Positions 41,166-63,579 of a DNA stretch of 64,000 bases are shown piece by piece. The notes under the pieces were generated by a model. The model saw only the letters and a list, made by a program, of their open reading frames with translations, did not search any database and had not been told where the DNA came from. The stretch's first letter is position 1; each line of letters starts with the position of its first letter. Source of the stretch: Stieleria magnilauensis (GTDB lineage Bacteria; Planctomycetota; Planctomycetia; Pirellulales; Pirellulaceae); assembly GCA_007753675.1 (NCBI GenBank), contig CP036432.1, forward strand, positions 2,392,394 to 2,456,393, read 5' to 3'. The translations under genes were made by a program, and so were the position numbers.

Positions 41166-41807
41166 TGGAGTTGCCCACGAAAAGTTGACAGTGGACCGAT
41201 CTTAACGGGAAGGTAAATAGCGAGCCCTGATGGATCAGGTTTCACCAACGAGTGACGTTCTGGCAATCGCATGCTCAAAGTCGATTGGGCTTCGGTAGTC
41301 CAGTGACGAGTGCATGCGGCGAGGGTTGTAAAATTGTTCGATGTAATCTGACACGCCGCGTGTGGCGTGTTCATGGGTGCCGTAGACTTCTTGGACTTCC
41401 TCGGTCTTGCAGCTCTTGAAGAAAAATTCCATCGGTGCGTTGTCGTAGCAGTTCCCGCGGCGACTCATGCTCTGAACAAGTTCACGTTCGACCAACCGGC
41501 GTCGAAATGCCGCGCTCGCATACCGAGAACCGCGATCGCTGTGGACGATCAACCCCGCACTTGGGGAACGAAACACGATCGCTTGATCGAGCGATTCAAT
41601 CACCAGCTCGGAATCGATCTTACGACTGGTTTTCCATCCGATGATCTTTCGTGAATGCAGGTCGACAAACGCGCACAGGTAGGTGAATCCTTCTTTTGTA
41701 GGGATGTAGGTGATGTCGGTAAGCCAGACTTGATTGATGTCTTCTGTCGAGAAGTCTTGGTTGAGTCGATTGGGGGCGATCGGCTGATCGTGATTGGAAT
41801 CGGGTGT
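41166..41807 (-). mobile_element. IS3-family element remnant
   Basis: Carries the 3' half of an IS3-type OrfB. The outer end on the left is placed near 41166, where TGGAGTTGCCCACGAAAAGT resembles an IS3-type terminus starting with TG; this boundary is a guess. The right side stops abruptly at the IS256 terminal repeat at 41808. The 5' half of the IS3 element (OrfA and the start of OrfB) is not found on the far side of IS256, so it has been deleted. Confidence 0.65.
41235..41807 (-). pseudogene. Truncated IS3-family transposase (OrfB, integrase core)
   Basis: About 191 codons of an rve integrase core survive: QVWLTDITYIPTKEGFTYL (first Asp), LIVHSDRGSRYASAAF (second Asp), SRRGNCYDNAPMEFFFKSCK (Glu), and the usual finish YNPRRMHSSLDYRSPIDFE. 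All three acidic residues remain, but the N-terminus is missing: after TPDSNHDQPIAP the frame runs into IS256 DNA. The open frame continues to 42014, but those residues are IS256 antisense and not transposase. It cannot make a full enzyme. Confidence 0.85.
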
Positions 41808-43174
41808 GGGCCTGTCAGGAATTTTGTGTTTGCCAGCAATAACTGTAAGCTGACCCAAACACCTTCTCCTGCAGGAGCCCCTTCCCATGGATTCCAAGAC
41901 GAAAGAGCAAGTCGAACAACTTGCTGCTGAATTTGCTCGCAATGCTTCGAGCATCGGTGAATTGAACGCATTGGTCAAGACAATGATGAAGTCGGGCATC
42001 GAAACGATGCTCAACTCCGAACTCGATCACCATCTCGATCAAGAACAATCCGAACCGGCCTCCGGCAGCACGCCTTCCAAAGAAAAACGAAACAACTGTC
42101 GCAACGGACATTCTTCAAAGAAGCTCAAGGGTGACTTTGGGGAACTGGAGATCGAAACACCTCGGGATCGAGACTCGACGTTTGAGCCGAAGATCATTGA
42201 AAAGCACCGGCGTCGCATTGATGGATTCGATGACAAAATCCTGGCCCTCTACGCAAAAGGATTGACCACCCGCGACATCCAGCAGATCGTCAAAGACCTC
42301 TACGGCGTGGATGTTTCACCAACGCTGATCGCTAGCGTCACCGAGGACCTGGAAGCCGAGCTAAAGACTTGGCAGTCGAGGCGTCTCGATCCGGTGTGTC
42401 CGATCGTCTATTTCGATGGGATCGTCGTCAACGTTCGGGGTGCATCGGCCAAGGTCAGCCCCCACACGATTTACGTTGCTTTGGGAATCAATCTGGATGG
42501 TAAGAAAGAGCTCTTGGGCCTCTGGATCGCTGAAACCGAGGGGGCGAAATTCTGGTTGAACTGCTTAACCGACCTGAAAAACCGCGGACTTTCCGACATC
42601 TTCGTATGCTGTGTCGACGGCCTTGCCGGGTTCCCCGAAGCCATTCGAGCCGCCTTTCCACAAGCTCGAATTCAGCTTTGCTTGGTGCACCTGGTTCGCG
42701 CCGCCCTTCGCTACGTCTCGCATGAAGACAGCAAGGCAGTCGCAGGTGATCTAAAATCAATCTACCGCGCATCGACAACCGAAGAGGCTGAAAGCGAACT
42801 GGAGCGGTTCTCGGAGAAATGGGACAAGAAGTATCCGACGATCTCGCGGCAGTGGCGAAATAAGTGGACGGACATCATCACACTGTTTGACTTCCCGCCC
42901 GAGATTCGTAAGGTGATCTACACGACCAACGCAATCGAGTCGGTCAACAGCACGATTCGCAAGTTTACTAAGAACCGCAAGATCTACCCGAGCCAGGACT
43001 CAGCAACCAAGTTGATCTATATGGCGATCATGGAGGCATCCAAACGCTGGACCCGCCCGATCAAGTATTGGAAGCAAGCACTCAACCACTTTGCAATCCT
43101 CTTTGAGGGCCGACTACCGCCGAGCCACCGATACTAAACAACTGAACCGGTGACACAAAGTTTTGGACAGGCCC
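41808..43174 (+). mobile_element. IS256-family insertion sequence
   Basis: The ends are imperfect 23-bp inverted repeats: left GGGCCTGTCAGGAATTTTGT from 41808, right the complement of GGGCCTGTCCAAAACTTTGT ending at 43174. The element is 1367 bp with one transposase gene. The flanks (TCGGGTGT left, GCAACATA right) do not form the 8-9 bp target duplication typical of the family, consistent with a later deletion on one side. Confidence 0.75.
41887..43137 (+). CDS. IS256-family transposase
   Basis: A 416-aa DDE transposase that appears intact. The N-terminal region includes LVKTMMKSGIETMLNSELDH and the motif EIETPRDRDSTFEPKIIEKH typical of the family. Catalytic residues are seen in PIVYFDGIVVNVRG (Asp), VCCVDGLAGFPEAI (Asp) and TTNAIESVNSTIRKFTKNRK (Glu). 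Length is normal for the family (about 400 aa). The start ATG at 41887 is preceded by GCAGGAGCCC. It should bind its own terminal repeats and catalyse cut-and-paste or copy-out transposition. Confidence 0.92.
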   Translation: MDSKTKEQVEQLAAEFARNASSIGELNALVKTMMKSGIETMLNSELDHHLDQEQSEPASGSTPSKEKRNNCRNGHSSKKLKGDFGELEIETPRDRDSTFEPKIIEKHRRRIDGFDDKILALYAKGLTTRDIQQIVKDLYGVDVSPTLIASVTEDLEAELKTWQSRRLDPVCPIVYFDGIVVNVRGASAKVSPHTIYVALGINLDGKKELLGLWIAETEGAKFWLNCLTDLKNRGLSDIFVCCVDGLAGFPEAIRAAFPQARIQLCLVHLVRAALRYVSHEDSKAVAGDLKSIYRASTTEEAESELERFSEKWDKKYPTISRQWRNKWTDIITLFDFPPEIRKVIYTTNAIESVNSTIRKFTKNRKIYPSQDSATKLIYMAIMEASKRWTRPIKYWKQALNHFAILFEGRLPPSHRY

Positions 43175-43290: not shown

Positions 43291-44214
43291 TTACGCCTGC
43301 GCCACTTGGCCACGTCGCCTTCGAACTCCGCAAACAGTCGCCAGTGCAATCGCGGCGAAACACATTGCGGATGATGGCTCCGGCACTACGTTGATGGTGA
43401 CGGAACTTACCGATCCGGTCAACACCCAACCTCGCTCTTTGGCCTTATTGGGTTGCCCGTCTAGAGACGGGGAAACGAACAACGGACCCAAACCAACGTC
43501 AACAAGAACCTGAGAACCACTGGGCAGTTTTGTAGCTGGGACTGGTACAAAGATCGTACTCGGGTCAAGCGCATGCTTGGTTACGCTGAACCCACCAGAC
43601 TGAATTCCACTCGTAATGGGAGGTGCAGCAAAAGTAAACAAGTCAAAGAACCCACCATCACTGATATCTAGCAGCGCTTCGAAATCATAGTTAGTCGGAC
43701 TGAATTCGGCAGCGCTAAGCCAATCGCTCGTCGTCGGACCGCTTGCGCCGGTCAACGCGCCGGTTCCTTGAGGGAAATTCGACGAAATCACCATTGCAAT
43801 CGTGTCAGACTTTAGCGATGCGGTGTCAAACTGCGCAGCGAAGCCATTCGATGCTGCCGACAAGAGTCCGAACAGCGTTTGCCCAGGTGCTGTTGGAGCA
43901 ACCAAACTGAACAGACCCGGCGTTGCAGACGACGCAACTTCAGCAGCGAACATGGTAACAATAGTTCGACTGACAGTACCCGGCGTACCTGTACCGTCGT
44001 TCGAGACTGTGTTAGATGTCACAAACCCAAACCCCACATCACCAACGTGGAGCCCTGGACCGCCGCCGTTATCGATGATACCCACCAACCCTGGTGCGGT
44101 ATTGTCAATACTGTCCGCGATACCGTTAAACGTAAGGATCGAATTGAGATAGCCAGCATTACATGAGACAGATAGCCCCACAACTAGCACAAGCGACGAA
44201 AAGTAACGAAACAT
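43291..44214 (-). CDS. PEP-CTERM sorting-domain protein
   Basis: A 307-aa exported protein from ATG 44214, preceded by GAGGG; the 21 extra upstream codons lack signal character. The signal peptide is about 1-22 (FSSLVLVVGLSVSCNAG). The body is rich in Ser/Thr/Gly/Ala and low in charged residues (GLVGIIDNGGGPGLHVGDVG), as in many such proteins. The C-terminus has the full sorting signal: VPEPSS (about 281), a hydrophobic helix MCFAAIALATVCGV, and RRRRGQ. Such proteins are processed by an exosortase, usually in bacteria with exopolysaccharide systems. The exosortase is not in this window. Specific function unknown. Confidence 0.85.
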   Translation of the reverse strand: MFRYFSSLVLVVGLSVSCNAGYLNSILTFNGIADSIDNTAPGLVGIIDNGGGPGLHVGDVGFGFVTSNTVSNDGTGTPGTVSRTIVTMFAAEVASSATPGLFSLVAPTAPGQTLFGLLSAASNGFAAQFDTASLKSDTIAMVISSNFPQGTGALTGASGPTTSDWLSAAEFSPTNYDFEALLDISDGGFFDLFTFAAPPITSGIQSGGFSVTKHALDPSTIFVPVPATKLPSGSQVLVDVGLGPLFVSPSLDGQPNKAKERGWVLTGSVSSVTINVVPEPSSAMCFAAIALATVCGVRRRRGQVAQA

Positions 44215-44277
44215 ACCGAAACCCTCAAAGGTAAATTTAGAAAAAGTTGCACTATTGAAAAACCCTAGCAACTTCAT

Positions 44278-46725: not shown

Positions 46726-48933
46726 CTATTGGCCACCTCGGACGAATCTGATCCGTTTGGTCCAGGTGAGCGGATCTAACCATGTCTGAATCTTGGGGAC
46801 CGGATAGTGCTCCATGAACCAATTTGCCACTCGCCTGCGTCGTGATCGATAGGCACGACCGGAGGGTAGGGCCGCACTCCGCATCAGTCGATAAACCATA
46901 CTTTGGCGAACGTCGCTTTCTGACTTTCCAGAAATCTCGCGGACCCAACCCTCTGGAATCGACAGTCCGATCAATTCGCTGGCCAACACGAGCACGCCGG
47001 TAACCGTTTTGATCAAGCCTAGGCTGACCGTTCGTGTTGCAAGCTCACTCCAGTCAAAATCAGTCACGTCATCCGCTTGCTCGATCAAATGACGTAAATC
47101 CCAAAGATCGCGAAACGCACGCCGATACTCACCGGTATGCCCCAAATTGATCGTGGAATGAATCACGCCGTCAACCGGATCAAGCCAGCGATACGGCCCA
47201 CCCTCGATCGGTCGGGAACGCTCGATGAATTCGTTCGTTTCGAATGAAAATGGATCGCAAACCGGAAGCAAGCGGAAGTGCAAATCAATTTCAATGCCAC
47301 GGTACACGTGACGGCGAGGCGCCAACTCGTGCAACCAGCGGCGATAGTATTGTTCGTCTCGCTCGCTGTTGGAGTCATTAGGTGCGAATTCATTTTCACG
47401 CATCAAACGATCGACACGATCCAGGTCCTGCTGGCGAACCAAAAGGTCGATGTCGCCTGTCGTGCGTCCGGCCGCCCAGTCGCATCCCGCGGTCAGATAC
47501 GCGCTTCCTTTTAACAGCACCAAAGGGACATTCAGCGGCGCGAGAATTCGCCCCACGGCATCGGTCTCGTAGCGAATGATCCGATGGTTGAACGCCGTCA
47601 GCCAGTTCTCACGCGCGAGTCGTGATCGAACACCGGCTGGCAATTGTTCGACATGTCCGCCACGCTGAAGGTCGTGGGCAATTTGTGCCAGCGATGAAGT
47701 GTGGTTGGCAAATCGAATGGCTCGGTCCCAGGTTCGCAGATCCCAGTGAAGGCATACGGCTGGGTCTTCACGAAGACGATTGACAAGCCGCAACACCTCC
47801 GCGGGATCGCGTTCGGTTTCCAGGTCCCCGCCGTCATCAGCACAAACATCCACTTGACTCGTCCGCGCGCTTCGGTTTGACGTCGTGTCGCGTTTAAAGG
47901 CCAACCGTTGCTCGGCAGCGCCGACAGGTTCGTCGACGACGGCCGGTGATGCAGTCGCAAACAAATCTTGCTCGCGCAAGTAACGCTCCGCATCGCCCGC
48001 ATCATGGTATCGCAATCGATAGGCAGGCACCGTCCGGGCCAAACGAATGGTGTCGTCGAAGCCTCGCCGCCCCATCATCCGATAGTTGATCCCTAGCTGC
48101 GTGAGCTGAACAAAGATCTCGTCAATCGAAAGCCGCTCAAACTGGCACGGCGTCGAAGGATCAGGGGATCGGTACGGCAACACGAACGCCCCGATCGGGA
48201 ACGTCGCTCCTGAATTTGCCACCGATTCCGGAGTCGGTCGCAGGTGCGCGATCGCACTCGGTGGATCTAGGATTTTGGCCTGCGGGCCGAACGCCGCTTG
48301 ATCGCCGAATCGTTCCCTGATCAGGTCTAACGAATGGCCTTTCAAGATGGTCGGGCGTCCAAGTCCATACACCCTCTGAGCGTCCAGATTGAACAACGCC
48401 GTTTCGTCGCTCAACAGTTTCCATCCGGAGAGCATCAGCGTCGAAGCAAGCGTGCTTTTGCCGGCGCCTGAATCGCCGGGAAAGACAATCGCTTGGTCGG
48501 TTCCAGGGAGCACTGCCGCTGCAGCATGGAACGCCAAATGGTTGTACGACTGGCGAAAGAAACACCAGCTCGTGATCCATTCCATCGCCGCAACCGACAA
48601 CCGCTTGGGCCACGTATGCCAGATCACGCCGTCGACGCTACAAATCGTCACATGGCGAAACCGCTCACGTCCCGCTTGAAAATCCAACGTGAAATCGGGA
48701 AGCGATTCAGCCTGTCGAAATTCCCGGTGGGCCTGCAGCACATGGATCGCCTCGGCGATGACCCGAAGATCGCTGCGAATGCGAAACTCGTAGGGACCAA
48801 AGGAAAACCCGAGTCCCTCGCTGCGCAGAGATGCGAAAACCTCCGTTAATGCGACATCCTTGATCAACACTCCGTTCGCTCCGGCAGTTGACGTTTTGAC
48901 TGGCCCCGCAGTGCTCAACAACGATTGCGACAC
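46726..48933 (-). CDS. HprK-related kinase A fused to a nucleotidyltransferase (HPr-rel-A-like system)
   Basis: A 735-aa protein with two parts. Residues about 25-340 resemble HPr kinase/phosphorylase: P-loop GDSGAGKST (153-161), then GWKLLSDETALFNLD with the acidic residues expected after it. Residues about 385-735 resemble the NTP_transf_5 group: LLKGSAYLTAGCDWAAGRTT followed by GDIDLLVR (about 492-499, metal-binding Asp pair) and VYRGIEIDLHFRLLPV. As I recall, in the described HPr-rel-A systems these are separate genes beside a PqqD-like protein; here they appear as one polypeptide. It may phosphorylate or nucleotidylate a small peptide held by PqqD. The start at 48933 is 9 bp after the PqqD stop. 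The substrate is unproven. Confidence 0.78.
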   Translation of the reverse strand: MSQSLLSTAGPVKTSTAGANGVLIKDVALTEVFASLRSEGLGFSFGPYEFRIRSDLRVIAEAIHVLQAHREFRQAESLPDFTLDFQAGRERFRHVTICSVDGVIWHTWPKRLSVAAMEWITSWCFFRQSYNHLAFHAAAAVLPGTDQAIVFPGDSGAGKSTLASTLMLSGWKLLSDETALFNLDAQRVYGLGRPTILKGHSLDLIRERFGDQAAFGPQAKILDPPSAIAHLRPTPESVANSGATFPIGAFVLPYRSPDPSTPCQFERLSIDEIFVQLTQLGINYRMMGRRGFDDTIRLARTVPAYRLRYHDAGDAERYLREQDLFATASPAVVDEPVGAAEQRLAFKRDTTSNRSARTSQVDVCADDGGDLETERDPAEVLRLVNRLREDPAVCLHWDLRTWDRAIRFANHTSSLAQIAHDLQRGGHVEQLPAGVRSRLARENWLTAFNHRIIRYETDAVGRILAPLNVPLVLLKGSAYLTAGCDWAAGRTTGDIDLLVRQQDLDRVDRLMRENEFAPNDSNSERDEQYYRRWLHELAPRRHVYRGIEIDLHFRLLPVCDPFSFETNEFIERSRPIEGGPYRWLDPVDGVIHSTINLGHTGEYRRAFRDLWDLRHLIEQADDVTDFDWSELATRTVSLGLIKTVTGVLVLASELIGLSIPEGWVREISGKSESDVRQSMVYRLMRSAALPSGRAYRSRRRRVANWFMEHYPVPKIQTWLDPLTWTKRIRFVRGGQ

Positions 48934-48942
48934 CGAATCGAA

Positions 48943-49239
48943 TCAGCGTTGCCCGGGCTCGACTGCATGAACGTATCCCAGCGTTTCCATCTGCCGCAGG
49001 CATTCGACGCAATACTTGGAAAGGGCCTCCCGCTCATATGAATCGGTGTCTGCCGCGAGAGCTTCGACGAGCGAAGTGGTTGAGACGGGGCCACCAGATT
49101 GACGCAGATGATCGTAGACCGCCATATCAATTGGGCCGAAGACGGCAGAATCCCAATAGTGGGCATTGAAGACAGCCCACGCGGAATCAGAGAGCTGCTC
49201 GATGACAGCCTCATCGCCAATGATGATCCAGCGTTCCAT
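48943..49239 (-). CDS. PqqD-family peptide chaperone of an HPr-rel-A-like cassette
   Basis: A 98-aa protein from ATG 49239 (MERWIIIGDEAVIEQLSDSA); a longer frame to 49311 would overlap the peptide gene. The pattern is PqqD-like: a beta-hairpin start, SAWAVFNAHYWDSAVFGPID, then a winged-helix end with YEREALSKYCVECLRQMETL. PqqD proteins bind leader segments of precursor peptides and present them to modifying enzymes. Here it sits 13 bp after a 65-codon gene and 9 bp before the kinase-nucleotidyltransferase gene, the order expected of a peptide-modification operon. That this is the HPr-rel-A variant is my reading of the neighbourhood. Confidence 0.7.
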   Translation of the reverse strand: MERWIIIGDEAVIEQLSDSAWAVFNAHYWDSAVFGPIDMAVYDHLRQSGGPVSTTSLVEALAADTDSYEREALSKYCVECLRQMETLGYVHAVEPGQR

Positions 49240-49252
49240 CAACCGGGATGCA

Positions 49253-49450
49253 CTAAGAACCGGTCGACGAGGCCGATGGAGACGTACCGTTCGCTCGTGC
49301 CGTCTGAGCACTGGTGGCGATGATCGCTGGCGTTGCGATCGCGGCGGTGATTAGCAACCGTCGACTTTGGTTACCCGTTCGGGCAATCGGCTTCGTCGTT
49401 TCGGCGTCGGGCTTTGATTCGTTCACAGGTTGTTTTGACTCAAATTCCAT
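49253..49450 (-). CDS. Short peptide gene, candidate substrate of the PqqD/HprK cassette
   Basis: A 65-aa protein with GGAG 12 bases before ATG 49450. Residues 1-29 are hydrophilic (FESKQPVNESKPDAETTKPI), residues 30-50 hydrophobic (RRLLITAAIATPAIIATSAQ), and the last 13 are Ser/Thr/Gly-rich (NGTSPSASSTGS). The Arg pair before the hydrophobic part looks like a weak export signal. It opens the operon and is immediately followed by the PqqD-like gene. In PqqD-linked systems the short first gene is usually the precursor, so this is the natural substrate candidate; Ser/Thr at the end could accept phosphate. A membrane anchor or random small gene is also possible. Confidence 0.6.
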   Translation of the reverse strand: MEFESKQPVNESKPDAETTKPIARTGNQSRRLLITAAIATPAIIATSAQTARANGTSPSASSTGS

Positions 49451-49717
49451 AGTTGATTGCTCCGCGTGATGAAGCTCTTTGAACTACACCTTTGTTCAGA
49501 TTGTCGCGGTCGGTTCATCCTCGCCACGCTCCTAGATTAACTGCGTTTTCTACCGAGAATACCCGCAATAAACTGATTTTGACCAAATATCGGCAGAATC
49601 AAATTGACGCGCCCAAACTTTGAATACGATTCGCCCCCCGCCTACGACCAGTACTCCAGAGGGGTGGTGACAATGCATGTTTTTGGCGGGCTTTGGGGCG
49701 CGAAGAAACGCCTAGAT

Positions 49718-50337: not shown

Positions 50338-50417
50338 GTAACCGTACACCAGAACCGTTGTAGGCGCGGAGTTTACCGTGGTGGGTTTTGTTTCGTTTCA
50401 CCAAACGGAGAAAACTC

Positions 50418-50774
50418 ATGCCCCGATCCAAAACTGCCAAGGTTTGGCAGGAACGGTTGCGTCGATTTGATCGCTCGCGAATGACCGTCGCCCAGTTCTG
50501 TCGAAATGAAGGCGTCTCGCAGCCGTCCTTCTATCAATGGAAGAAAAAGCTGCGCCAGTCGCCAGCACTCCTCGAGCCAGAGCCAGGCGAGCCGAACGTC
50601 CAGTTCGTGCCGCTTCGCCTACCTGGCCTGCCCGGCGATCAGGCTGGCGAGCCTGATCGGGTCGTCGGCCCGGCGACTGCCTGCACCACCATCGAACTTC
50701 CCGGCGGCATTCGAATCCGCGTGGAGGTCCCGACGGATCGGCAACCAAGCCAACAGCCGGAGGCCCGGCCATGA
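50418..50774 (+). CDS. tnpA: IS66 accessory protein TnpA
   Basis: A 118-aa protein from ATG 50418 with GGAG upstream; the TTG ten codons earlier is unlikely. It has the typical N-terminal helix-turn-helix: KTAKVWQERLRRFDRSRMTV and QFCRNEGVSQPSFYQWKKKL, which should bind the element's ends. A Pro/Glu-rich middle and a beta segment (IELPGGIRIRVEVP) end the protein. It overlaps tnpB by 4 bp (ATGA), indicating translational coupling. Confidence 0.88.
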   Translation: MPRSKTAKVWQERLRRFDRSRMTVAQFCRNEGVSQPSFYQWKKKLRQSPALLEPEPGEPNVQFVPLRLPGLPGDQAGEPDRVVGPATACTTIELPGGIRIRVEVPTDRQPSQQPEARP

Positions 50775-51121
50775 TCGGGTTGCCCTCCGGTGTGCCGATT
50801 TATCTTTGCACCGAACCGGTCGATTTTCGCAAAGGCTTCGACGGACTGACCGGCATCGTCACCACTGCGATGAATCACAGCGTGACCGATGGTTCGTTGT
50901 TCCTGTTCGTCAATCGCAGACGCGATCGCATCAAAGCCCTGTGGTGGGAAACCGGCGGACTGACGCTCTGGTATCGAAGGCTCGAACAAGGCACCGTCGA
51001 AATACCAAAGGCAGAGGACGGCAGCTCGCACATCGTGATCGATAACGTCGAACTGGCCATGTGGATCGCAGGAGTGTCACTGAAAGCGGCCAAGACCCGA
51101 CGCAAACGAATGGCAGCTTAG
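50771..51121 (+). CDS. tnpB: IS66 accessory protein TnpB
   Basis: A 116-aa protein of the IS66 Orf2 family, complete: GVPIYLCTEPVDFRKGFDGL, SLFLFVNRRRDRIKALWWET and GGLTLWYRRLEQGTVEIP. It is needed for IS66 transposition in studied members, but its exact biochemical role is not settled. This TnpB is unrelated to the IS200/IS605 RNA-guided nuclease of the same name. It starts inside the tnpA stop. Confidence 0.9.
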   Translation: MIGLPSGVPIYLCTEPVDFRKGFDGLTGIVTTAMNHSVTDGSLFLFVNRRRDRIKALWWETGGLTLWYRRLEQGTVEIPKAEDGSSHIVIDNVELAMWIAGVSLKAAKTRRKRMAA

Positions 51122-51145
51122 CCCATCGCCAATCGACTCGAAACG

Positions 51146-51185
51146 AACCGGCTCCACGAAATTTGTTTCGCGGAGCCGGTTTTTT
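51146..51185 (+). terminator. Strong hairpin terminator between tnpB and tnpC
   Basis: AACCGGCTCCACGAAA (51146-51161) pairs with TTTCGCGGAGCCGGTT (51166-51181) around a short loop, and T residues continue to 51185. It lies 25 bp after the tnpB stop and 49 bp before the tnpC start, so it probably attenuates transposase expression within the element. Confidence 0.85.
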
Positions 51186-51233
51186 CGCGCCTTGCTTTGC
51201 GCGATTTGGAGTGAAATTTATAATGTCGCCATC

Positions 51234-53057
51234 ATGAATTCGAAGCCTCTTCCAAACGACATCGACGCTTGCCATCAACTGATTGCAGAGCTGCAATCGC
51301 AGGTCGGCGAACATCAACAGATCATTGGCAAGCAGGCCACCGAGCTATCGCTCAAAGACAAGCTGATCGAGGAGCAAGCTCATAGCGTCCTGGAACTCAA
51401 AGCCGATCACGACAAGCTCGACGAGAAGGTCATCGAGCTAAACCTGAAGATCGAAAAACTGCTCAAACAACTCTACGGGCGCAAGAGTGAACGACGCGTC
51501 GATGGCGAAGGCCAGTTGTTTTTGGATCTCGGAGAAGAGCCCACGCCCGAGGTGGTCAGCGCGCTGGAAGAAGCCATTCGCGAGGCCGAACAGATTGTCG
51601 ATGACGCCGAAGAGGCAAACAAGAAACGCAGAAAGAAACGTCCGGAACCAAGCGACCGCAAGTTCCCCGAACACTTGCCGCGATACGAAAAGATCGTCGA
51701 CCTGCCCGAAGCCCAACGCAAAGGCCTCATCCTGATCGGCTATGACGAAGTCGAGACGCTCGAAAGCACCGCCGGTGAACTGAAAGTCCGGGTGACCAAG
51801 TATGCCAAGTACGCTCACCCGACCGACAAATCACAAGGAATCGTCACTCCCGAGCGTCCCACCGGTCTGGTCGAAGGCGATCGCTTTGACGCCTCGATTG
51901 GAGTCGAAGTTGTGGCCTGGAAATACTTCTATCACCTGCCGTTTTATCGTCAGCAAGATCTGTTCGCCGGCAGTGGCTGGACGCCCAGTCGCAGCACATT
52001 GGGGAACATCGAAACGGCCGTCGAGTTCGCGCTGCGTCCGCTTGCTGATTACTTGCGAAGCGTTTTGAAGCACGATCGAACGGTCGGCTGCGACGACACC
52101 GGTGTGTTGTTGATCACACCGAAGGCCATGCCTGACCTATCGGAACATCCCCGCGGCAAGCGGATCGGCGAAGTGCTTGGAAATGCGATCGAGTCCGGCA
52201 AGCCAAGCATCAACGCAAACATGTGGGGCTACTACGCTTCACGTCTTCCGGTGGTGGTGTTCGATTTTACGGTGAGTCGTCACCGCGATGGACCGGATGA
52301 TGTACTGAGTGATTTTAAAGGCAACGTCCTAGGAGACTGCTGGTCGGGTTTTCAAAAGATCGATCTACGAAGTGACTCGCGAATCACGTTCGCGGCATGC
52401 TGGGCGCATGCGCGTCGCAAGATCGATGAGTGTCGCGGTGCGTTCCCTCTGCAAGTGGCGAAGTTGGAGTCGCTGATTCGGATGCTTTACGACGTAGAAG
52501 ACCAGATCAAGGAGCTTGACGATGCAGCGCGTCTTGCGCGACGTCAAAGCTTATCGCGTCATGTTCTCGACCAGATCGCGGAGTACCTCGACAGCGAAGC
52601 GATGCAGTCACCGTCGGTTCTTCCCAAGAGCAATCTCGGTGTGGCGTCTGGCTATGTGCGACGTCACTGGGAAGCACTGTGCCGCTTCACCGAGGACGCG
52701 ACGATTCCGCTGGACAATAACGATTGCGAGCAGTTGATGAAACGCGTCGCCACGGGAAGGAAGAACTGGCTCTTTAAGGGCTCGGTGGCTTCAGGAGAGC
52801 GAGCCGCGAACCTGCTAACGATCATCGGCAGCGCGATCCGCAACGACTTGGACGTGCGAGCGTACTTGGACGATGTCTTACGGAGGGCGCTCGCCGGCGA
52901 GACAGACTGGTCCGTACTGACTCCCCACGCATGGAAAGCGGAGCACCCTGAATCGATTCGCGAGTACAGGCAGGACGAACGCCGCCAAGCCGCCGACCGC
53001 AAACGCACCCGCCGAGCCCGCCGCCGCCTCCTCAACAAGTCAACCAGACGTCGCTAA
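51234..53057 (+). CDS. tnpC: IS66-family transposase TnpC
   Basis: A 607-aa DDE transposase from ATG 51234. N-terminal coiled coil (about 10-75, ATELSLKDKLIEEQAHSVLE), the LYGRKSERR motif, then a zinc-binding/helix region. The catalytic core has VGCDDTGVLLITPKAMPDLS (Asp), GDCWSGFQKID (Asp) and IPLDNNDCEQLMKRVATGRK (Glu) followed by NWLFKGSVASGERAANLLTI. All are as in functional members. The C-terminus ends in an Arg-rich tail that abuts the right inverted repeat. Intact, length somewhat above the usual 520 aa. Confidence 0.93.
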   Translation: MNSKPLPNDIDACHQLIAELQSQVGEHQQIIGKQATELSLKDKLIEEQAHSVLELKADHDKLDEKVIELNLKIEKLLKQLYGRKSERRVDGEGQLFLDLGEEPTPEVVSALEEAIREAEQIVDDAEEANKKRRKKRPEPSDRKFPEHLPRYEKIVDLPEAQRKGLILIGYDEVETLESTAGELKVRVTKYAKYAHPTDKSQGIVTPERPTGLVEGDRFDASIGVEVVAWKYFYHLPFYRQQDLFAGSGWTPSRSTLGNIETAVEFALRPLADYLRSVLKHDRTVGCDDTGVLLITPKAMPDLSEHPRGKRIGEVLGNAIESGKPSINANMWGYYASRLPVVVFDFTVSRHRDGPDDVLSDFKGNVLGDCWSGFQKIDLRSDSRITFAACWAHARRKIDECRGAFPLQVAKLESLIRMLYDVEDQIKELDDAARLARRQSLSRHVLDQIAEYLDSEAMQSPSVLPKSNLGVASGYVRRHWEALCRFTEDATIPLDNNDCEQLMKRVATGRKNWLFKGSVASGERAANLLTIIGSAIRNDLDVRAYLDDVLRRALAGETDWSVLTPHAWKAEHPESIREYRQDERRQAADRKRTRRARRRLLNKSTRRR

Positions 53058-53078
53058 CTGGTTCTGGTGTACGGTTAC

Positions 53079-54222
53079 GTTGCTGGTAAATCGCTTGAGC
53101 TTCCTCTGCCCCCATCCGCTCGCGAAAACGCCCCATCGCTTCGCTGTCAGTGGACTTCGCTTGATAAGGGGCTTTGCCATCGGCGACGTCTTTCTCGGCA
53201 CCTTTGACAGCACCGTAGACCGTCGTCCCAGCGGCATCCAACGCGTCGATATCCGATGCTTTGATAAAACCACCATCAACTAGGTACTGCCCCGGCACGA
53301 CACCGTACGTCGAACACACCGACTCAAATACCGGAAGCATCTGCCCCATGTCACTGCCTTGATTGTTCACGTCCACGCCGACAACGATTCGCGTCTCGCC
53401 GTCGGTTGCAAACTGCACATTAAACGCCGGACGAAAGCCGCCATCGCCCATCTTCATCCGAACCGCTTCGGGGTCCGTCGTCGACGCTCGTGGAGTTGAT
53501 TTACTTTTGCGAGACTTCTTTTCCCGGCGGCGGCGCTCGAGTTCCTCAAGGTTCTCTTGAGCGGCTTTGATACGTTCGAGCCGTTCTTCGGCGGCACGCT
53601 CTCGAGCGGCTTGCTGCGCGACTGAGACATCGGCTTGGTTCTCTTGCTCGGATTGTTCTTTGAGTTCTTCAAGATACTTCTCCGCTTCCTCCTGCATCCT
53701 TTGCAACGTCGGCTCCGATCGAAACGAACTGCTGCCCGCCGAAGCACGCACGCGCATGCCATCCTGACCAATCGTTTCCAGCGTGATCAGTTTTTCATTG
53801 AGAAGGACGGTAATTGAATCGCTCAGCAGCTGTTCCAACTCTTCAGTGTGCTTGGTGCGAAAATCACTCAGCGTGTGATAGTTGACCGTTACTCCGCCGC
53901 AGATCCACAGGTAGCAAAAATCGCGTGTCGTAAGCTCTGCGATTCGTCGCGCGCTGGTGATTCCTTCGAGGGTGGCATAGAACCACAACGCGAAGAGAAT
54001 CCTGGGATCGATGGGGTTTCGTCCACGTGTTCCTTGGCGTGCTTTGATCGGCTGGTAGAAGGGAGACAGATCCAGCGACTGGCAGTAGGCCCAAACCAGT
54101 CGCACGCGATGATCGCTGGCGACGAGTTGGTCCAGCGAGAGCATCCGCATCTCGATCTGAGTTCGCTCGGGCCGATTGGTACGAGCTTGTCCACGCTGAG
54201 TAGCATTGCTTGGATTATTCAT
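53079..54222 (-). pseudogene. IS1182-type transposase, N-terminal part cut by IS66
   Basis: The first 381 codons and part of the next, from ATG 54222. N-terminal DUF772-like block: QIEMRMLSLDQLVASDHRVR and RGRNPIDPRILFALWFYATL. A Lys/Glu-rich coiled coil (about 170-235) follows, then a DDE core with ETIGQDGMRVRAS (Asp) and IVVGVDVNNQGSDMGQMLPV (Asp). At 53078 the IS66 right end begins; the open frame continues 47 bp into IS66 and stops at 53032. Joined to 50136-50329, the frame is restored: 446 codons including stop, no mutation seen. Disabled in its present state. Confidence 0.88.
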
Positions 54223-54282
54223 GCGATAAATTTAGCGCCAAAATTAAATCAAACAACCGTCAGCCCAATTATTCACAGCCTC

Positions 54283-54400
54283 GGAGGGCTTGCGCCCTGC
54301 CGCTAACACGTCGTCAAACGCAGGGAATAAATGCTTCACAGCGTTGCCCGCCGGGGTCGAGGGGATTTCCGCGACGGGTTTCCCGGAGGTGGCGCTCCGC
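54283..54400. repeat. Right half of a split palindrome and shared repeat module
   Basis: Starts with GGAGGGCTTGCGCCCTGCCG (54283-54302), the right arm of a family A-type palindrome whose left arm is at about 49905-49952. It continues with CGCAGGGAATAAATGCTTCA (also at 4798-4817) and then GGGGTCGAGGGGATT and TTCCCGGAGGTGGCG (also at 4012-4042). The last 8 bases, CGCTCCGC, are the left target duplication of the IS4 element; the module resumes at 56108. Confidence 0.75.
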
Positions 54401-56099
54401 CTTAGGTTTGACCACATCTTTTTGTTTGCCGGCGGATGTGTCGAGTTGGCGCGGCTGTGAAACCAATTGTTGATCTTTGTAAATGAGTCAAGCTTGGTAA
54501 GGTTGATCTGGTAATTTGGCGATGCCTGGAGTTTTTTCCCTGTGGGAACCGTGGCGTGGAACACACGCTGCGATTGATTCGCGACGGCGGGTTGAGATGG
54601 TTGCTGGTGACGGAATGGCTACCAGCACTCGTATCACGGAAGGCCCCCCATGGTTTTGCCCCTGCAGACATTTGGACAAGTCAACTTTGCCAACGCTCAA
54701 CTCGGCGACAAACGTAGAACAAATCGTCTCGTACAACTCGCTGACTCGATGGCTCGACGACCAAGTGGAACATTGCCACAGAAATTCAATAGCCCCAAAG
54801 ACCTCAGGGCTTTCTACCGGTTGATGGACCGTGACCAGGTGACGCATGAGGCAATTCTCGCATCTCATCGTGAGGCAACCTGTCTCAAGATCAAGCAAAT
54901 CAGAGGCCCAGTCCTGATTCTTCATGATGCCACCGAGCTGGATTTTACCAATCACAAGTCACTTTCCGATGACATGGGCCAAATTGGCAACGGCAATCGC
55001 CGTGGGTACATCGCGCAAAACAGCTTGGCCGTGAACCCGAAAACACGGCAAGTAATTGGATTGTACAATCAGGTTTTGCACCATCGGGAGGATGCTCCCA
55101 AAGACGAACTGACCGCTCAGAAACGCAAGCGTGAATCACGAGAGAGTCGATTGTGGTTGCGCGGTGCCGATCCACTGGCTAACAGCGAGAAACTCGTTGA
55201 TGTTTGTGATCGAGGAGCTGACACGTTCGAGTTCCTCGAACATGAATTGGCCAGCGGCCGTAGGTTCGTCATTCGTGCCTCTCATAATCGGGCGATCATT
55301 CCTGGACATGGCGATCAAGGCAGTAGCGATCAAGCCTGTTACCTTCGCAACTATGCTGCCAGCCTTCCGCCAGCAGGACACTGGACGTTATCGGTAACGA
55401 GCAAAGTCGACAAGAAAGTACGGGTTCGCAAAGGCAAAAAGAAATCAGCCAATCGACGGGCTCGTGAGGCGAAGATGGCTGTCTCATTTGCCCCGGTTCA
55501 AATCAAACCACCCGCGAAGAAACTAGGAGAACACGGCAACGATCCGCTTGCCGTCTGGGTTGTTCGAGTCTGGGAAGAAGATCCGCCCGCCGGAGAAGAG
55601 CGTCTGGAATGGTTTTTGATTACAAACCAACCCGTACTTGATTTTGAAGATGCCTATCAGGTTGTCGGTTGGTACGAATGTCGCTGGATCATTGAAGAGT
55701 ATCACAAAGGGATGAAAACAGGATGTAGCATTGAGAGCCCGCAATTCACTAGCGAAGAACGTCTGCAGCCAGCGATCGCTTTGATTTCAGTGGTGGCGTT
55801 GACTCTGCTGCAAATGCGTGATGCCAGTCGTCGTTGGGACGCAAAGAAACGCAAAGCGACCGAAGTTATCTGCAGCGACTACGTGAGTGTGCTGAGCGCT
55901 TGGCGACATGGCCAAATCAAACCCGACTGGTCAATTCACGATTTCTTCTATGCACTGGCGAGACTCGGCGGTCATCAGAACCGCAAATCCGATCACCCAC
56001 CGGGATGGCAAACGATTTGGCGAGGCTGGAACGACCTCCAAGCGATGCTCTGCGGCGTTGACGCAATGAAGATTGTAAAAAGATGTGGTCAAACCTAAG
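54401..56099 (+). mobile_element. IS4-family insertion sequence
   Basis: A 1699-bp element with perfect 23-bp terminal inverted repeats; the left begins CTTAGGTTTGACCACATCTT at 54401 and the right ends at 56099. An 8-bp target duplication, CGCTCCGC, flanks it (54393-54400 and 56100-56107). It contains a single transposase gene, whose stop codon lies inside the right repeat. It inserted in the same repeat locus that carries the IS1182/IS66 nest. Confidence 0.93.
54650..56098 (+). CDS. IS4-family (Tn5-like) transposase
   Basis: A 482-aa protein from ATG 54650 with GGAAGG upstream. The N-terminal domain QTFGQVNFANAQLGDKRRTN matches the Tn5-type DNA-binding start. The DDE core has VLILHDATELDF (Asp), VDVCDRGADTFEFLE (Asp) and the Y-R-E-K signature YECRWIIEEYHKGMK (Glu). 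The C-terminal part (about 380-482) corresponds to the dimerisation domain. It looks intact. The TAA stop at 56096-56098 is formed by the terminal repeat itself, so gene end and element end coincide. Confidence 0.93.
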   Translation: MVLPLQTFGQVNFANAQLGDKRRTNRLVQLADSMARRPSGTLPQKFNSPKDLRAFYRLMDRDQVTHEAILASHREATCLKIKQIRGPVLILHDATELDFTNHKSLSDDMGQIGNGNRRGYIAQNSLAVNPKTRQVIGLYNQVLHHREDAPKDELTAQKRKRESRESRLWLRGADPLANSEKLVDVCDRGADTFEFLEHELASGRRFVIRASHNRAIIPGHGDQGSSDQACYLRNYAASLPPAGHWTLSVTSKVDKKVRVRKGKKKSANRRAREAKMAVSFAPVQIKPPAKKLGEHGNDPLAVWVVRVWEEDPPAGEERLEWFLITNQPVLDFEDAYQVVGWYECRWIIEEYHKGMKTGCSIESPQFTSEERLQPAIALISVVALTLLQMRDASRRWDAKKRKATEVICSDYVSVLSAWRHGQIKPDWSIHDFFYALARLGGHQNRKSDHPPGWQTIWRGWNDLQAMLCGVDAMKIVKRCGQT

Positions 56100-62364: not shown

Positions 62365-63060
62365 TCAAAGTCTAATTTTAGGGTAGACGGATTTGAGTTT
62401 AACCCGGGCGTCGTCAATTTTCATCTGCCAGTCAACGCCTCGTTGTCTTGCATTGATGTCCGATGACCATGCTGCAATCTCTCTGGCCAACTCCTCAATA
62501 CTTCCAATGCGTCGCCCGCCAACACATTGACGGGTGATGCTGCTTAACTCGTTCTCTGCGATATTGAGCCAGCTACCGTGCTTGGGCGTATAGCACCAGT
62601 TGATTCGCTTCACCAACGCCCGTGCTCGAGACGGCTCAAACACTTCGTAGAAAGCCCCGCGAGTGTGCGTGTTGAGATTGTCGCAAACCAACGTCACCGT
62701 CTCGCAATCGGCGTAACGTCCCTCAAGCAGCTCAGCCATTAGCAAGGCCCAGTCCGCTTTGGTCTTGGTCTCTCTGGCGTAGGCTTCTCGCCATCCTGCC
62801 AGCGGCTCGGTGTACATGAAAATGTTCGCTACTCCGGCACGTTCGTATTCATAGTCCACCCGGCGGGGATGTTCGGTGGTCGCTTCGATCGGAACGTTGA
62901 CGTCCTTGATCAGTTGGACCGGTTGTTCATCCATGCAGATCACCGGATGACTCGAATCGTACGGTTTTTCGTAAGTTTCTAGCACATCTTCCATGCTCGC
63001 GGCGAACTCCGCATCGCACTGTGGCGGGATCACCCAGTACTCGATGTTGCGATTATTCAT
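62365..63060 (-). CDS. IS630 transposase, second frame (DDE catalytic part)
   Basis: A 231-aa frame from ATG 63060, more likely expressed as a -1 frameshift fusion with the first frame. All catalytic motifs are present: HPVICMDEQPVQLIKD (Asp), VTLVCDNLNTHTRG (Asp) and KHGSWLNIAENELSSITRQC (Glu). The C-terminus INARQRGVDWQMKIDDARVK is as in related elements. The TGA stop lies inside the left terminal repeat. The element appears capable of expression. Confidence 0.88.
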   Translation of the reverse strand: MNNRNIEYWVIPPQCDAEFAASMEDVLETYEKPYDSSHPVICMDEQPVQLIKDVNVPIEATTEHPRRVDYEYERAGVANIFMYTEPLAGWREAYARETKTKADWALLMAELLEGRYADCETVTLVCDNLNTHTRGAFYEVFEPSRARALVKRINWCYTPKHGSWLNIAENELSSITRQCVGGRRIGSIEELAREIAAWSSDINARQRGVDWQMKIDDARVKLKSVYPKIRL

Positions 63061-63500
63061 GCGATTTTTTTTAGCGTCTGGCGAACGGTTTCATGCGAGA
63101 CCGAATCGCAGATCCCCAGTTCGACGACTTTCTCGGCGAGCAATCTCAGCGACCAGTTGGCATAGCCTGCTGGCGGTTTGCCTAGACGAGTGGCGATGAT
63201 TTTCGCCTCTTCTTGACCGCTGAGGCATTTAGGTCTGGCAGGCTCCGCACGTTTCTTTCCCTGCAGTGTTTGCTCAAAGCCAAACTCGACAAACCGCTGT
63301 CGTATATTTTCGACCGTCTTGGTGCGGCAACGATAAGCTTCAGCAATCGCCGCATCGGTCCATGCCAAATCGTCTGCATCCGCAGCAAGCAAGATTTGGG
63401 CACGACGCACCTTCTGGCTAGAACCGCTAAACTTCTTGACGATTGCATCGAGCGTCCGACGCTCCTGATCGTTCAACCGAACGATGTACTTTTTCTGCAT
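63057..63500 (-). CDS. IS630 transposase, first frame (DNA-binding part)
   Basis: A 147-aa product from ATG 63500, preceded by GGAGGG. It carries the helix-turn-helix region QKVRRAQILLAADADDLAWT and IAEAYRCRTKTVENIRQRFV. The frame ends at TGA, overlapping the second frame by 4 bp. Just before the end is a run of eight A (minus strand, 63072-63065). A -1 slip there would fuse RQTLKK to NRMNNRNIEYWVIPP, the normal continuation for this family, giving one full transposase. Confidence 0.85.
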   Translation of the reverse strand: MQKKYIVRLNDQERRTLDAIVKKFSGSSQKVRRAQILLAADADDLAWTDAAIAEAYRCRTKTVENIRQRFVEFGFEQTLQGKKRAEPARPKCLSGQEEAKIIATRLGKPPAGYANWSLRLLAEKVVELGICDSVSHETVRQTLKKIA

Positions 63501-63579
63501 TGGAAAACCCTCCGTGTTCCCCAAAGCATGAAGCTTTTACGCGATTAGACCAACCCTAATTCTTGAAGCTGACGCACCA

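Follow-up and report, generated by a model that had tools for sequence, protein, structure and literature searches.

In this study, a stretch of 64,000 bp from Stieleria magnilauensis (NCBI GenBank assembly GCA_007753675.1, contig CP036432.1, positions 2,392,394 to 2,456,393 of the forward strand; hereafter the window) was analyzed with respect to three genes on its minus strand, which encode, in this order, a peptide of 65 amino acids, a PqqD-like protein, and an HprK-like kinase fused to a nucleotidyltransferase. The open reading frames (ORFs) confirmed the tight packing described in an initial annotation of this DNA, with intergenic gaps of 13 and 9 bp. With modest confidence, we favor the reading that the three genes form a small pathway resembling those of ribosomally synthesized and post-translationally modified peptides (RiPPs), in which the fused enzyme would modify the tail of the 65-residue precursor prior to export by the twin-arginine translocation (Tat) pathway. 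The features of the locus are collected in Table 1.

Table 1. Features of the locus in window coordinates (pLDDT, predicted local distance difference test; RRE, RiPP precursor recognition element).
Feature	Position	Strand	Basis and remarks
Conserved upstream region, putative promoter/regulatory	49460..49660	-	Columns 89% identical on average across 3 aligned genus members
65-aa precursor-like peptide gene	49253..49450	-	ATG; ORF list; twin-arginine signal-like leader and 12-residue tail
Twin arginine R30-R31	49358..49363	-	No other column is invariant in the alignment of 19 family members
Putative Tat signal core RRLLITAAIATPAIIATSAQTARA (RR, hydrophobic stretch with Pro, A-x-A)	49292..49363	-	Cut expected after A53; putative cleavage
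Variable 12-residue Ser/Thr/Gly tail NGTSPSASSTGS	49256..49291	-	Putative modified core
PqqD/RRE-fold peptide-binding protein gene, 98 aa	48943..49239	-	ATG 49239; profiles, predicted structure
735-aa HprK-like kinase fused to NTP_transf_5 nucleotidyltransferase	46726..48933	-	GTG; profiles, model
HprK-related kinase domain, residues 42-320	47974..48810	-	TIGR04352; H136, P-loop GDSGAGKST with K159, D176-E177
P-loop GDSGAGKST	48451..48477	-	Motif, alignment
Low-confidence interdomain linker, residues 331-373	47815..47943	-	pLDDT < 50
Nucleotidyltransferase domain, residues 401-655	46969..47733	-	PF14907
GDID of motif KG..R..GDIDLLV	47446..47457	-	Motif

The PqqD-like ORF can also be read as 122 amino acids from GTG 49311; homologues share the 98-residue part beginning at ATG 49239. 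For the fusion the start is uncertain, being either GTG 48933 or a position about 21 codons downstream, where the protein of the related genome G006 begins, and residues 1-19 have a pLDDT below 50 in the predicted structure.

The kinase domain was matched over the full length of the HprK_rel_A model TIGR04352 (E 3.6e-47, 160.8 bits) and the transferase domain by NTP_transf_5 (PF14907, E 5.1e-39, 134.8 bits), the latter above its cut-off of 31.2 bits. Thereby, profiles recovered both the HprK-like P-loop domain and the GDIDLLV nucleotidyltransferase domain that had been read by eye from the 735-residue protein. An AlphaFold model of the fusion shows two confident domains (mean pLDDT 85.9) joined by the disordered linker. 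In a Foldseek search, the kinase domain matched phosphoenolpyruvate carboxykinases with E values starting at 4e-4 and HPr kinases with E values starting at 0.01, while the transferase domain gave weak matches to TglT (E 0.025), 5uvd (0.054), TM1012 (0.12), and LnuA (0.57). For comparison across bacteria, 96 loci were compiled, comprising the window, 15 loci of related genomes, and 80 loci fetched from a collection of 84,980 species; the latter are the best 80 of at least 128 confirmed among at least 593 candidate stretches, and, by record title, all of them except L078 belong to Proteobacteria. Of these 96 loci, 94 are readable, and all of the readable ones retain a His ahead of the P-loop, the Lys within it, and an Asp-Glu pair. 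The motif KG...R..[NSG]D[ILV]D is present in each of the eight fused transferase domains known to us from the genome survey described below.

The structure of the PqqD-like protein was predicted with high confidence (pLDDT 91.5). Its best match in the PDB is TbiB1, an RRE of a lasso peptide system with bound leader (E 7e-4, template modeling score 0.68-0.70, 14% identity), and several more RRE-bearing RiPP enzymes are among the first 17 structural matches. According to this model, the protein has an RRE-type fold with a small sheet and a winged helix. The PqqD-type assignment of the initial annotation is supported by the fold, though the protein scores below the cut-off of the PqqD_rel_X model TIGR04353 (35 bits); its homologues in the genomes G001, G019, and G047 reach 18.6, 27.6, and 42.0 bits, the last being above the cut-off.

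The small gene encodes the sequence MEFESKQPVNESKPDAETTKPIARTGNQSRRLLITAAIATPAIIATSAQTARANGTSPSASSTGS, in which S-R-R is followed by an uncharged stretch with a proline, A-x-A, and 12 residues rich in Ser, Thr, and Gly. Signal peptidase is expected to cleave behind A-x-A. Judged from its sequence, the peptide has the layout of a Tat signal with a very short mature part, a character that goes beyond the hydrophobic segment noted initially; a TatC gene is present in the genome. Comparing the 26 codons of the signal part between the window and G001, ten codons differ and all ten differences are synonymous, while the comparison with G006 gave ten synonymous codons and one replacement. Over the entire gene, the window and G001 show 19 synonymous codon differences and 14 replacements, with diverging tails. 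By these codon counts, the signal part is under strong purifying selection, and the near-absence of replacements indicates that the gene is real and constrained, with a conserved leader and a variable end. This combination of a conserved signal part with differing tails resembles the leader/core organization of RiPP precursors.

A gene for such a small signal-bearing protein turned out to be a regular companion of the enzyme genes. A profile built from 13 small peptides was searched against 18,622 stop-to-stop ORFs of the 96 loci (E 0.01), and all 63 matches of this first round, the 13 seed loci included, adjoin the kinase gene on its strand. After two more rounds, 86 of 87 matches were adjacent and on the same strand, covering 86/96 loci. 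Since the iteration used near-kinase matches only, the first round and a profile-free count are the less biased figures: without any profile, a Tat-like pattern was seen in 56/443 ORFs just upstream of the kinase, compared to 129/15,824 elsewhere and 3/484 in the same zone on the other strand. The arginine pair is found in 85 of the 86 adjacent small proteins, and an A-x-A/G-type site in 81 of these 85. Lys or Arg occurs within the last nine signal residues in 57/81; such residues near the signal end are typical of Tat rather than Sec signals. All eight fused loci carry the peptide gene, with tails of 9, 12, 12, 12, 13, 13, 17, and 17 residues. Many other relatives are longer. An SGN.S-type sequence stands behind the signal in 26/66 tails outside a group of 21 mostly sphingomonad small proteins, which have a C.IPVPD-type sequence instead; shuffled tails, which ignore kinship, contained SGN.S 1.8 times on average and nine times at most. 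In two annotated plasmid records the small gene is listed as 'hypothetical protein', with 'HprK-related kinase A' and 'nucleotidyltransferase family protein' close by; the Sphingomonas record additionally lists an 'HPr-rel-A system PqqD family peptide chaperone', and the small proteins of both records bear the signal. From these data, a small protein with a twin-arginine signal regularly accompanies these enzymes as a fourth component and is likely to be what they modify.

Several further arrangements were observed. Eight loci were omitted from the 96-locus counts, namely L013 and seven from a set of 18 (L048, L051, L054, L055, L056, L059, and L060); inspection by eye showed an RR-type small gene in L059 and L060 and none in the other five of the seven. 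In another distant group, L057 (3999-4220) and L058, a KR-type small protein (SASKR[DE]FLKK..A..GVY.GP.IR) without A-x-A is encoded downstream of the kinase, beside PqqD. L047, L049, and L050 form a distant group with PqqD and HprK-like kinase, in which an RRK/RRR signal-bearing small gene lies downstream of the kinase and not upstream. In L076, L106, L115, and further Proteobacterial loci, many small partners contain an SPGYWK-type motif some way behind the signal, which suggests a common secreted domain.

Surveying genomes for the same fusion, as proposed together with the initial annotation, yielded eight fused proteins in five genera of one family (G000, G001, G006, G019, G571, G594, G602, and G618). 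Within the genus, the gene set is present in 3/14 genomes. In the family, 11/241 genomes match, the remaining three having separate adjacent kinase and transferase genes (G460, G621, and G622), and the two genes are also separate in G047 from another family of the same order. A draw of 392 genomes across the phylum gave one ORF spanning both domains in the window genome only; three of these genomes pass the TIGR04352 cut-off, which the window kinase does not reach. The transferase adjoins the kinase in all 80 fetched loci and is fused to it in none; apparent long kinase ORFs in L079, L106, L116, and L121 were rejected as fusions, not being in the kinase frame. Across the 96 loci, a profile with six seeds located the transferase within range in 91, the exceptions being L046, where it lies on the upstream side of the kinase, and L049, L050, L052, and L058. 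The kinases of L044 and L091 pass the TIGR04352 cut-off. In trees of 20 sequences calculated for each domain, a branch with full support (100/100) separates the eight fused proteins from the rest, and their common ancestry fits one fusion event; both trees carry a long-branch warning caused by one Proteobacterial row (L104), and the bootstrap of the transferase tree had not settled. The patchy spread of the gene set within the genus fits gain and loss. In G122 and G429 (L151 and L150), kinase and transferase are neighboring genes whose alignment as one protein is interrupted by a single stop codon, which may illustrate how the locus looked prior to fusion.

Within the conserved region upstream of the peptide gene, long blocks are invariant, and an imperfect palindrome, GAATCGTATTC, is present. 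A sigma-70-like site was not found in this conserved DNA (49460-49660), and a repeat element was ruled out as its origin, one invariant block being single-copy in the genome. The locus lies in a region interrupted by several insertion sequences; transposase genes surround the system at 41235-43137, 50388-56098, and 62365-63524 (Mutator/IS256-like, rve integrase, IS66, DUF772, Tnp_DNA_bind, and DDE_3). Also, the minus-strand ORF at 43291-44277 was considered a possible PEP-CTERM protein by eye, with a weak NCBIfam match (19.5 of 65 bits).

In the pathway that we favor, the PqqD-like protein would act as RRE and hold the leader of the 65-residue precursor in the cytoplasm, where the HprK-like domain would phosphorylate one Ser or Thr of the short tail. 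The fused transferase domain would then add a sugar-phosphate, a hexose, or a nucleotidyl group to that phosphate without release of the peptide. The finished precursor would be exported by Tat via its twin-arginine signal, and an ordinary signal peptidase would cut after A-x-A, so that a modified peptide some 12 residues long would remain in the envelope; its gene lies in a region of glycan/exopolysaccharide genes. The Tat pathway normally carries pre-folded cargo. With a Tat-like leader, a dedicated leader peptidase and exporter would be unnecessary. The kinase, transferase, and RRE steps are proposed by analogy with known pathways. HprK-like kinases phosphorylate the C-terminal Ser of paeninodin and pseudomycoidin (PMC8498205, PMC9266682) and Ser3 of the core in linear polyphosphorylated peptides (LPPs; Popov et al. 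2026, PMC13381572). The nearest nucleotidyltransferase with experimental data, PsmN, is reported to attach one or two hexoses to the phosphate, although PsmN might instead nucleotidylate it before a glycosyltransferase of the host takes over (PMC8498205, PMC9266682). LppN showed no activity when examined, deletion of lppN causing no detectable change (PMC13381572). In view of these two reports, a glycosyl group may be transferred in the second step, and not a nucleotidyl group. The peptide-modification system proposed in the initial annotation is retained as the best reading, given the recurrence of the small gene across the 96 loci and in all fused ones, and the coupling of phosphoryl and nucleotidyl transfer on one enzyme, which was part of that proposal, is putative.

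Several observations weigh against this pathway. Of the three profile models proposed for checking (HprK_rel_A, PqqD_rel_X, and NTP_transf_5), only the last was matched above its cut-off: the kinase stays below the 200 bits curated for TIGR04352, and the PqqD-like protein barely touched TIGR04353 with 13.6 bits (E 0.098). Lasso kinases are reported to require His-Lys-Asp-Asp (PMC9266682), and solved HPr kinases align as His...GKS...Asp-Asp, whereas the second Asp is Glu in the window kinase family, a difference that may or may not be of consequence. The strict nucleotidyltransferase motif was found in 80/96 loci and a PqqD profile match in 75/96. Scanning the 65-residue peptide with Pfam and NCBIfam gave zero matching models. 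Among 19 family peptides scanned likewise, one gave a faint match to a Tat-type model in Pfam (E 0.079) and one did so in NCBIfam (E 0.12), the strongest match being a beta-lactamase model in one member (E 0.0005). The profile libraries did not confirm the signal, so that the Tat assignment is based on the motif and on how well it is conserved. The window tail lacks the SGN.S motif found in many relatives. A C-terminal Ser is present in 3/8 fused loci (window, G001, and G006; G019, G571, G594, G602, and G618 end otherwise) and in 12/81 tails of the wider family, so that it was rejected as a fixed target across homologues. Finally, the absence of the short gene from homologous loci, named at the outset as a finding that would speak against the proposal, applies to a minority: in L053, L078, L133, L136, and L139 the enzyme genes are present and the small gene was searched for and not found. 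The ten loci without a profile match also include L075 and L088, which have little upstream sequence, L052, which has a candidate by eye, and L057 and L058 with their KR-type small protein.

The same genes can be explained differently. The small protein might be modified and yet retained in the membrane, its tail serving outside the cell as an attachment point or primer for a glycan produced by the neighboring exopolysaccharide genes. The flanking genes include those for glycosyltransferases, an acyltransferase, an AMP-ligase, and a short-chain dehydrogenase/reductase (SDR), and a free product of merely 9-17 residues, the tail length seen here, would be unusually small. An amidotransferase of the Asn-synthase type is encoded immediately beyond the window, at a distance of about 15 kb from the peptide gene, for which the nearest model is the XrtA/PEP-CTERM model TIGR03108 (615 bits, cut-off 817), the general Asn synthase model TIGR01536 giving 475 bits (cut-off 267, exceeded). 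Exosortases above cut-off are encoded at C1:2375859, 2500300, and 2582775, the first two flanking the window on either side, and a homologue of an exosortase-A-type O-ligase (97.7 of 188.1 bits) occurs in the vicinity of the G019 locus. A glycan-related role is plausible for the window locus. On the other hand, nearly all RR peptides (81/85) have an A-x-A/G-type site before the tail, and many relatives have long, secreted-looking parts. Searches of the flanks of the 80 fetched loci (up to 8 kb), with a single phmmer query per gene, located an exosortase in one locus, the amidotransferase in three, and the O-ligase in none, so these were rejected as general partners and the glycan link is not claimed as general. 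Retention in the membrane as a glycan anchor is, in our judgment, unlikely.

Alternatively, the small protein might be an independent Tat-exported effector or structural protein, with RRE, kinase, and transferase acting on another molecule and merely sharing the operon. The mature parts vary from 9 to more than 200 residues, with little in common beyond the signal and, in part, SGN.S, and the small gene is lacking in some loci. Against such independence stand the linkage in 86/96 loci across phyla and the RiPP precedents. Furthermore, an RRE requires a peptide, and no other recurring small gene was seen by eye, a systematic search not being part of this inspection. We consider an independent effector rather unlikely. 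A paeninodin-like lasso pathway or an LPP pathway in the strict sense would account for the same three enzyme types and for the C-terminal Ser of the window peptide, but it fails on the cyclase and the leader motif, and no dedicated peptidase or exporter was present among the 17 window proteins scanned; we regard it as very improbable. Equally remote is the possibility that the enzyme is a regulatory, HPr-type kinase with a metabolic phosphocarrier as its substrate: the kinase domain is related to HPr kinase/phosphorylase by sequence and fold, yet only the core kinase region is shared, and the enzyme keeps regular company with an RRE, a nucleotidyltransferase, and a signal-bearing small protein.

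The modification of an exported precursor by the fused enzyme, our preferred reading, has wider implications. The HPr-rel-A system, named from gene context, gains a concrete and testable candidate substrate, and the toolkit of kinase, nucleotidyltransferase, and RRE would be extended past lasso peptides and the LPPs of Bacillota. Also, an economical route is suggested, in which a Tat signal takes over the tasks of both a leader peptidase and an exporter dedicated to the peptide. What transferases of the NTP_transf_5 type do to phosphopeptides, which the cited papers leave open, might be settled with the help of the fused enzyme, and relatives of the gene set occur in many bacteria. More tentatively, and as something possible rather than probable, the HPr-rel-A sets of Proteobacteria and of the window lineage could constitute a widespread class of phospho-(glyco-/nucleotidyl-)peptides whose leader is a Tat signal, the window family being the most reduced version of this class, which combines one kinase-transferase enzyme with a core of roughly a dozen residues. 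Such a class of Tat-led peptides is not described in the literature searched.

Among known systems, those with phosphorylated lasso peptides (PadeK, PsmK, and PsmN) share with the window an HprK-type kinase, a nucleotidyltransferase (in the case of pseudomycoidin), and an RRE directed at a peptide Ser. In several lasso clusters the nucleotidyltransferase is fused to B2, whereas in the window it is fused to the kinase. Unlike in lasso systems, no lasso cyclase was found among the neighbors scanned, and the target Ser is not fixed at the C-terminus in homologues; the nearby Asn-synthase gene was rejected as a cyclase, its score with the lasso cyclase model being 231 of 525 bits compared to 615 with TIGR03108 and 475 with TIGR01536. 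For the PqqD-like protein, the predicted fold is like that of the lasso RRE TbiB1 (PDB 5v1v and 5v1u; similarity normalized to query length), and leader recognition by the window protein is putative. LPP loci likewise combine an RRE, an HprK-like kinase, and an NTP transferase; their product is linear, as that of the window would be, and they share with the window a location in polysaccharide loci and a patchy distribution. In PMC13381572, LPPs are described as restricted to Bacillota, associated with a SipW-like peptidase and an MsbA-like exporter, and equipped with the leader motif YxxPxVLxHQxIxFETxxS. The window peptide, which contains no Tyr, lacks this motif and has a twin-arginine leader instead, and a Pfam scan of 17 window proteins, a subset of its ORFs, revealed neither a SipW-like peptidase nor an MsbA-like exporter, nor any other peptidase or exporter dedicated to the peptide.

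The closest relative is the HPr-rel-A system (TIGR04352 HprK_rel_A, TIGR04353 PqqD_rel_X, and a nucleotidyltransferase family protein), whose NCBI name was drawn from gene context. The terms 'HPr-rel-A' and 'HprK-related kinase' were found in no paper of the open-access literature searched, subscription papers and bioRxiv being outside its scope. Gene order and all three enzyme types are the same as in the window locus, the two being linked via G019 and G047, and the adjacent nucleotidyltransferase is present in the window by fusion (PF14907, 134.8 bits). Differences are the scores below both model cut-offs, the fusion of kinase and transferase, and the very short precursor. The connection to the HPr-rel-A neighborhood made in the initial annotation was right, the enzyme types being identical and the PqqD protein of G047 exceeding the TIGR04353 cut-off, and the window locus is a divergent, fused branch of HPr-rel-A. 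Despite staying below the HPr-rel-A cut-offs and lacking the cyclase, the leader motif, and a conserved C-terminal Ser, it most probably works, by analogy, like the lasso and LPP systems.

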